The notes under the pieces are model-generated. The model saw nothing but the letters and a program-made list of their open reading frames with translations. It was not told the DNA's origin and did not search any database. Shown here piece after piece: positions 3,936-37,134 of a DNA stretch of 46,072 nt; position 1 is the first letter of the stretch; each line of letters begins with the position of its first letter. Both the position numbers and the translations under genes were made by a program. The stretch is from Candidatus Giovannonibacteria bacterium (GTDB taxonomy: Bacteria; Patescibacteriota; Minisyncoccia; JACPKW01; UBA11713): positions 1 to 46,072 of the forward strand of contig JACOXM010000005.1 of assembly GCA_016176285.1 (NCBI GenBank), written 5' to 3'.

Positions 3936-4011
3936 TGGTCCGCCCAGTAGGATTCGAACCTACGACCATCTCCTTAAGAGGGAGTTGCTCTACCAACTGA
4001 GCTATGGGCGG
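3936..4011 (-). tRNA. tRNA-Lys (CTT)
   Basis: On the minus strand CCGCCCA pairs with TGGGCGG. The D arm has AGCTCAGTTGGTAGAGC, and the anticodon loop CTCTTAA gives CTT. The T arm is GTAGG-TTCGAAT-CCTAC. The 3' CCA is encoded (3936-3938 on the plus strand). The 5' end overlaps the last codons of rpmB by 10 nt. Confidence 0.92.
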
Positions 4012-4199
4012 TATGTCAGATGTTTTTCTTTTTTCAAGCAATCTGAACAAATTTTTATTCTGCCGCCTGCAGGCAAAGTAGCCCACTGGAGGTTGGGATA
4101 TTTTCTTGTTTTTTTAGTCGGGTTGTATTTTCCGCGAAGGAGTACTCTTTTCGTACCCATCTGTGACCCTTTTTTGCAAATTGGACAAATTCTAGCCAT
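4002..4199 (-). CDS. rpmB: ribosomal protein bL28
   Basis: Structural protein of the large ribosomal subunit. The 65-aa product begins MARICPICKKG and has a second cysteine pair, CSDC, near residues 51-54, so it is the zinc-binding form. The core KTRKYPNLQ segment is typical of L28. Its TAG stop lies inside the 5' acceptor/D-arm junction of the downstream tRNA-Lys on the same strand, so the two products probably come from one transcript whose processing would trim the mRNA end. Confidence 0.92.
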   Translation of the reverse strand: MARICPICKKGSQMGTKRVLLRGKYNPTKKTRKYPNLQWATLPAGGRIKICSDCLKKEKHLTYRP

Positions 4200-4209
4200 G
4201 AATATTATT

Positions 4210-4279
4210 GCTCGCGACTCTTTTTTCGGCTGGTGAAGAATTAAAAATTCTTCTAGGCCTTCAAAAAGAGCACGCTCGC
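4210..4279. ncRNA. structured element, copy A
   Basis: Read on the plus strand it folds as: lower helix CTCTTTTT (4218-4225) with AAAAAGAG (4263-4270); internal loop; GGCT (4228-4231) with GGCC (4256-4259); small loop GGT/TA; apical hairpin GAAGAATT (4235-4242) with AATTCTTC (4246-4253). Copy B at 29420-29489 has the same architecture with paired changes. It lies in the gap between divergently transcribed rpmB and the site-2 protease gene. Whether it acts as RNA, and on which strand, is not known. Confidence 0.55.
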
Positions 4280-4293
4280 ATAGGCTAGATAAT

Positions 4294-29419: not shown

Positions 29420-29489
29420 GCAAGCAATTCTTTTCTCGACTTGTGAAGAATCTTCGATTCTTCTAGGTCTTCGAAAAGAATACGCTTGC
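29420..29489. ncRNA. structured element, copy B
   Basis: Same architecture as 4210-4279: GCAAGC (29420-29425) with GCTTGC (29484-29489); ATTCTTTTC (29427-29435) with GAAAAGAAT (29473-29481); GACT (29438-29441) with GGTC (29466-29469); apical GAAGAATC (29445-29452) with GATTCTTC (29456-29463). It begins 2 nt after the nuclease stop codon. Loop bases TC/TTC and TGT/TA are shared with copy A. Confidence 0.6.
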
Positions 29490-29581
29490 TTATCCTCATA
29501 TGAGAATTTTTCTTTTTGACAAACATAGAAGCCGAAGCCGAGGGTTCACAGTTTGTAAAAAGGAAAATTCTATATAATATA

Positions 29582-36309: not shown

Positions 36310-36926
36310 TGGAAAAGGGTGAAAAACTTTTAGAACTTAATAAAGAACTCGCTGCGAATCAGGAGCTTCCTTTATTTGGATCCGCGAACCTTGTTTTTGG
36401 GGAGGGGAGTGTGGATGCGAGCGTTTTGTTTATAGGCGAGGCCCCGGGTTTTCATGAGGATAAGCTCTCGCGGCCGTTTGTGGGGCAGGCGGGAAAGCTT
36501 TTAGATAAGCTTTTATCATCGATAAATTGGCCGCGTGAAAGCGTTTATATTACGAACATTGTTAAAAGGCGTCCTCCGGGGAACAGGGATCCGCTGCCCG
36601 ATGAAATAGAAGCTTACAAACCATATCTCGAAAAACAAATAAAAATTCTTTCTCCGAAATTGATTGCGACTCTTGGACGTTTTTCCATGAATTATTTTTT
36701 GCCTGATGCGAAAATTTCGCGCGATCATGGCGTTGCCCAATACGCCGGGGAGCATCTCATTATGCCGTTCTATCATCCCGCCGCAGCGCTCCGCTCGACC
36801 GCTGTTTTAAAAGAGCTCGAGTTGGATTTCAAAAAACTTCCAGATATCCTATTAAATCCCCCGCCTAGAAAAAACGACCATCCTCCGAAATCAGCGGAAG
36901 AAAATAAGCAGTCAAGTTTGTTTTAA
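36309..36926 (+). CDS. family 4 type uracil-DNA glycosylase lacking Fe-S cysteines
   Basis: Removes uracil from DNA. IGEAPGFHEDKLSRPFVGQAGKLLD (residues 42-66), TNIVKRRPPGNRDPLPDE (82-99) and FYHPAAALR (154-162) are the family 4 motifs. The protein contains no cysteine: the positions that carry the four cluster ligands in family 4 enzymes are A16, E19, R87 and A102. The C-terminus ends QSSLF, a good match to a sliding-clamp-binding motif. Start ATG 36309 gives 205 aa, the usual size; upstream frame is permease sequence. Confidence 0.88.
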   Translation: MEKGEKLLELNKELAANQELPLFGSANLVFGEGSVDASVLFIGEAPGFHEDKLSRPFVGQAGKLLDKLLSSINWPRESVYITNIVKRRPPGNRDPLPDEIEAYKPYLEKQIKILSPKLIATLGRFSMNYFLPDAKISRDHGVAQYAGEHLIMPFYHPAAALRSTAVLKELELDFKKLPDILLNPPPRKNDHPPKSAEENKQSSLF

Positions 36927-36932
36927 AAAAAT

Positions 36933-36990
36933 ACTCCTCTGCCAGTTTTTTGGAGCCAAGTGATTGGTGCCAAAGAATCGACAGAGGAGT
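36933..36990. other. long structured stem-loop after the glycosylase gene
   Basis: ACTCCTCTG (36933-36941) pairs perfectly with CAGAGGAGT (36982-36990). Inside a 4x4 loop, TTTTTTGG pairs with CCAAAGAA; after a 2x2 AG/TG step, CCAA-GTGA-TTGG closes with a GNRA-type tetraloop on the plus strand. On the minus strand the helix is followed by ATTTTTTT, so it could also terminate minus-strand transcripts. Confidence 0.6.
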
Positions 36991-37134
36991 GAATTAGAGA
37001 AACATATTTTTTTGTAAGGAGCTATAAAGATAACTTTACGAAAACCTTTTTACCCAAAATGCTTGCGAATGTTTTTTAAATTTTCGCCCAATAATTTGGA
37101 CGCATTTTGCACAGGCGTTTTTTAGGTCGAGACT

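Follow-up and report, generated by a model that had tools for sequence, protein, structure and literature searches.

The window, the whole 46,072-nucleotide stretch of Candidatus Giovannonibacteria DNA analyzed here, contains two related hairpin-forming elements. Copy A (core at 4218 to 4270, + strand) lies between the divergent genes rpmB (ribosomal protein L28, - strand) and an M50 peptidase gene (+ strand), upstream of a -10-like sequence of the latter. With its outer arms ATTATTGCTCGC ... GCTCGCATAGGCTAGATAAT, it occupies the whole 94-nt spacer (4200 to 4293). Copy B (core at 29428 to 29480, + strand), which spans 29420 to 29489 with its outer stem GCAAGC/GCTTGC, begins directly behind the stop codon of the gene preceding rnhA. 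Gene names here and below were assigned by inspecting the translations rather than by a family search.

The two copies share one fold, made up of a lower helix, a YC/TTC loop, a 4-bp helix, a KGT/TA loop, and an apical hairpin. These parts read CTCTTTTT/AAAAAGAG, TC/TTC, GGCT/GGCC, GGT/TA, and GAAGAATT-AAA-AATTCTTC in copy A, and TTCTTTTC/GAAAAGAA, TC/TTC, GACT/GGTC, TGT/TA, and GAAGAATC-TTC-GATTCTTC in copy B. RNA folding of the + strand gave -29.4 kcal/mol for copy A (z = -3.8) and -33.0 kcal/mol for copy B (z = -7.1), and none of 200 dinucleotide shuffles was as stable as either. With DNA parameters, the same fold was obtained for both copies on either strand. The single fold plan proposed in the initial annotation, with compensated changes in the apical, middle, and lower helices, is thus confirmed, and the sequences are as it gave them. 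Its limits for the element (4210 to 4279 and 29420 to 29489) hold only in part, as pairing and flanking similarity reach further at both copies. A descriptor drawn from the fold plan (KGTG...CTA, a middle helix of 3 to 4 bp, and at least 6 in the lower helix) had no match in the window apart from copies A and B, and a single one in 20 random windows.

Other palindromes were observed. A second long one (29505 to 29570) shares the extra spacer DNA with copy B, 15 nt beyond its end, and has an RNA folding z of -4.7 on the + strand. It may be related to the element, to which it has a weak reverse-strand resemblance (model score of 18.5 bits); we did not accept it as a family member. A very stable hairpin at 36926 to 36995 (-32.5 kcal/mol per 70 nt, CACTCCTCTG-type arms) is located directly 3′ of a uracil-DNA-glycosylase-like gene. 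In the related genomes G003 and G005, rpmB contains within its coding sequence an extra palindromic stretch (CCCGCCTGCGCGGGCAGGC and a near copy; seen in L073 and L075 ahead of the M50 gene), which the rpmB of the window (4002 to 4199) lacks.

Further copies and host range

Blast and two covariance models identified three more copies in the host assembly (G000; 638,120 bases in 16 contigs), at C5:26-77 (+), C11:7629-7678 (-), and C11:8094-8146 (-), and three in two relatives that also belong to Ca. Giovannonibacteria, at C15:1176-1229 (+) of G003 and at C22:11806-11858 (+) and C22:12263-12316 (-) of G006. The sample thus comprises eight copies from three genomes, five of them in G000, and the assemblies are MAGs. 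A partly deleted relative of the element is present in G006 (contig C6) at the site of copy A. Weak matches of one model (R2) in G001, G002, G004, G003:C21, and G006:C13 were taken as chance (E of 0.4 to 2).

The host range is narrow. A pattern search of the named genome collection matched only two records, MFIQ01000015 and MFIE01000022, both from Ca. Giovannonibacteria and with match positions that fit the copies on G003:C15 and G006:C22. Samples of the class (286 genomes) and the phylum (380) yielded no match outside the same family under stricter filters, so that weak copies may be missed there. Blast matches outside the family were mostly short (about 14 to 33 nt) and AT-rich and were discarded. 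No match was found in viral contigs searched with two patterns, nor in distant blastn searches of plasmids with copy A and of phages with copy B. Literature searches returned no report on repeats of this host group.

The copies are scattered over unrelated spacers (rpmB/M50, rnhA, tRNA-Arg, rplJ-rplL, and the one following rplL). In G003, the copy is bounded by a stop codon on one side and tRNA-Arg(TCG)/CCA enzyme on the other, and the C5 copy is found at the same place; contig C5 starts about 25 bases ahead of it (C5:1-26), which cuts off the upstream gene. The C11 copies of G000 and the C22 copies of G006 are located in the rplJ-rplL spacer and beyond the 3′ end of rplL. Those beyond the 3′ end are inside terminator-like stems, in sense orientation in G000 and antisense in G006.

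Conservation of pairs and internal loops

In the model alignment of all eight copies, 94.8% of the pair cells are standard; shuffles reach 75.4% (sd 2.1), and sliding the partners gives no more than 67%. Both sides have changed in 15 of the 20 pairs versus 6.2 in shuffles, and none of 500 shuffles reaches 15, a count that leans towards structure by construction because this alignment was fitted to the model. A MAFFT alignment of six copies gave 95.0% standard pair cells, versus 82.0% in shuffles and at most 66.4% with slid partners, and changes on both sides in 12 of 20 pairs. The best-conserved parts are the two internal loops (95% and 90%), compared with 79%, 80%, and 70% for the lower, middle, and apical helices and 46% for the terminal loop; the earlier observation that loop bases are kept thus extends to eight copies. 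In copy C5, the half-helices flanking the apex are nearly letter for letter those of copy A, and the apical helix itself, GTTCCGC/GCGGAAC, is unrelated to that of A and fully paired, the whole helix having been swapped. The standard pairs, the double changes, the conserved loops, and the swapped yet paired apex show that the hairpin structure is constrained, and the added copies support the selection on structure proposed from copies A and B alone.

The pair at columns 15/48 bears on the strand. Six copies have T-G (U-G) there and the others C-G or T-A (U-A), so that only the + strand gives a standard pair throughout. Because the other strand would carry an A-C mismatch in six copies, the + strand is more likely the folding strand.

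Empty sites and subfamilies

At all five loci, the element is missing from orthologous spacers of sister genomes. Between rpmB and the M50 gene, G003 and G005 have about a dozen nucleotides, CATTCAAAAAATATATGATAAAG, and the G002 spacer is likewise short and devoid of the element. In G003 and G005, the rplJ-rplL spacer and that following rplL are short and empty. The rnhA spacer is short in G003, G002, and G006, with none of the DNA of copy B. At the tRNA-Arg site of G006 the core is absent, with TAATATTCGCTCGC and TAGGTTATG retained, as in a deletion remnant or a target. The sequence GCTCGC is found on both sides of copies A and C5 and once at this G006 site; copy B differs.

Copy A shares 87% identity with the tRNA-Arg copy of G003, and copy B 89% with the rplJ-rplL copy of G006, although the loci differ, whereas the same-locus pairs are only 63% and 69% identical. 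Similarity thus tracks subfamily, not locus, and we rejected the view of the copies as single-copy orthologous RNAs. Since G000 and G006 are both occupied at three loci, vertical inheritance of old insertions that were then lost in G003 and G005 is possible.

The occupation of unrelated spacers, the empty sites, the flipped orientation, and the subfamily structure fit a small mobile-type palindromic repeat. We therefore favor, with some reservation, the view that these elements are a repeat family of Ca. Giovannonibacteria, small (about 70 to 100 bp), palindromic, intergenic, and non-autonomous, which spread as mobile-type hairpins. The + strand would form the hairpin as single-stranded DNA, and a candidate recombinase or transposase acting in trans would read the conserved internal loops (YC/TTC and KGT/TA), while the helices, the apical one above all, would need only to remain paired. 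Copies would be scattered into spacers beside gene ends, promoters, and a terminator, where they may persist by doing little harm. Several observations count against mobility: the copies are few (5 in 638 kb), none has a clearly established target-site duplication, and seven of the eight cores run in the sense direction of the downstream gene. We saw no transposase gene adjoining a copy. A search of G000 with PF01797 (Y1 transposase) gave a single match, which has its own, different palindrome.

Comparison with known elements and other explanations

REPINs are miniature mobile hairpins in which compensatory changes are common (PMC3116915), and IS200/IS605-type and REP transposases recognize bulges in folded single-stranded DNA (PMC8266576). 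The element resembles the REPIN/REP systems with RAYT (TnpA_REP) in being a small intergenic palindrome with common compensatory changes, conserved unpaired bases, and dispersal in both orientations (PMC3116915, PMC8266576). In contrast, the left arms of the copies lack a common GTAG (GT[AG]G) head on the 5′ side of the palindrome, and 5 copies in a 638-kb assembly are far from the 100 or more per genome usual for REP/REPIN (PMC2817692). Moreover, the resident RAYT gene (G000:C14:9599-9820) is flanked by another palindrome, ACTTGGAAACCGAGTTTCCAAGT; ACTTGGAAAC-n3-GTTTCCAAGT palindromes are present at both sides of the gene and inside it, and the R1 model had no match there. For these reasons the element is not the REP of the genome's own RAYT, in line with the earlier statement that no known REP family was recognized, and we rejected this RAYT as its mobilizer. 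The ORF itself encodes a RAYT-like Y1 transposase of 213 amino acids, with its three palindromes after, before, and inside the frame (L056:1848-1872, 2054-2082, and 2538-2564).

Like the MITE-like repeats (Correia, RUP, ERIC, and RU elements), the element is short, non-coding, intergenic, and hairpin capable, with empty sites in relatives; unlike them, it showed no clearly established target-site duplication, and no full-length insertion sequence related to it was found. The folded strand of integron attC sites comprises a lower helix, an unpaired spacer, a second helix, and a variable terminal hairpin, an order that the element shares. However, its lower helix is T-rich/A-rich, there is no cassette array, and the R″/R′ boxes (RYYYAAC/GTTRRRY) are absent from the base of the folded strand in copies A and B.

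The main rival explanation is a cis-acting RNA, namely a hairpin, protein-binding or of the RNase III type, that would serve mRNA processing or regulation from the 5′ or 3′ untranslated regions of translation genes. It retains this rank because seven of the eight cores have the sense orientation relative to the downstream gene and because the neighboring genes lean to translation (L10/L12, L28, and tRNA-Arg/CCA enzyme); the + strand pairing at columns 15-48 and the conservation of both internal loops also agree with it. Nevertheless, sister-genome orthologues of these genes lack the element, one copy is antisense to both neighboring genes, and copy A lies between divergent genes, ahead of the -10-like sequence. 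Rfam 15 returned only three tRNAs for the window at gathering scores and chance-level matches in lax searches of the A and B sites, in agreement with the earlier remark that no known riboswitch or ribozyme was recognized. We thus regard a cis-acting RNA as rather unlikely. The functional structured RNA implied by the initial annotation holds for the constraint on structure; a function as RNA is less well supported, weakened by the dispersal, the empty sites, the antisense copy, and the similarity by subfamily. The transposon-derived palindrome that it listed among the refuting possibilities is now favored in the form of a mobile-type repeat, but not of a simply decaying one. The element fits the REPIN or miniature-transposon sort of dispersed palindromic repeat better than a cis-regulatory RNA, and it resembles a minor repeat of the mobile type more than a novel gene switch.

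Palindrome upkeep by mutation, in which template switching in quasipalindromes copies one arm to the other, could create apparent covariation without selection. The whole-arm replacement at the C5 apex with near-identical flanks is the trace expected of it, or of a palindrome swap. However, this process would erase the mismatched internal loops, which are the best-conserved parts, and the same core recurs at unrelated loci; we consider it improbable. Least probable is a terminator or transcription insulator unit duplicated by chance, since, although the G000 copy 3′ of rplL lies within a stem followed by TTTTTTG, the G006 copy likewise, and copy B and the tRNA-Arg copies directly follow stop codons, no T run follows the stem in A, B, C5, or the G003 copy, a terminator scan found none at the A or B hairpins, and a generic terminator works without conserved internal loops.

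The hairpin family itself is new, and the kind of element, a small dispersed palindromic repeat, is already known. The family provides a documented case, in the reduced genomes of Patescibacteria, of a mobile-type hairpin under structural constraint, and it shows that covariation among repeat copies need not imply a regulatory RNA. It is conceivable, if improbable, that a domesticated mobile hairpin became a lineage-specific protein-binding RNA hairpin joining the L10/L12, L28, and tRNA-Arg/CCA enzyme genes in one post-transcriptional regulon; if so, these ultra-small bacteria would coordinate several translation genes post-transcriptionally. For the mobile-type repeat that we favor, the two conserved internal loops offer a specific lead to the enzyme that would read the hairpin.
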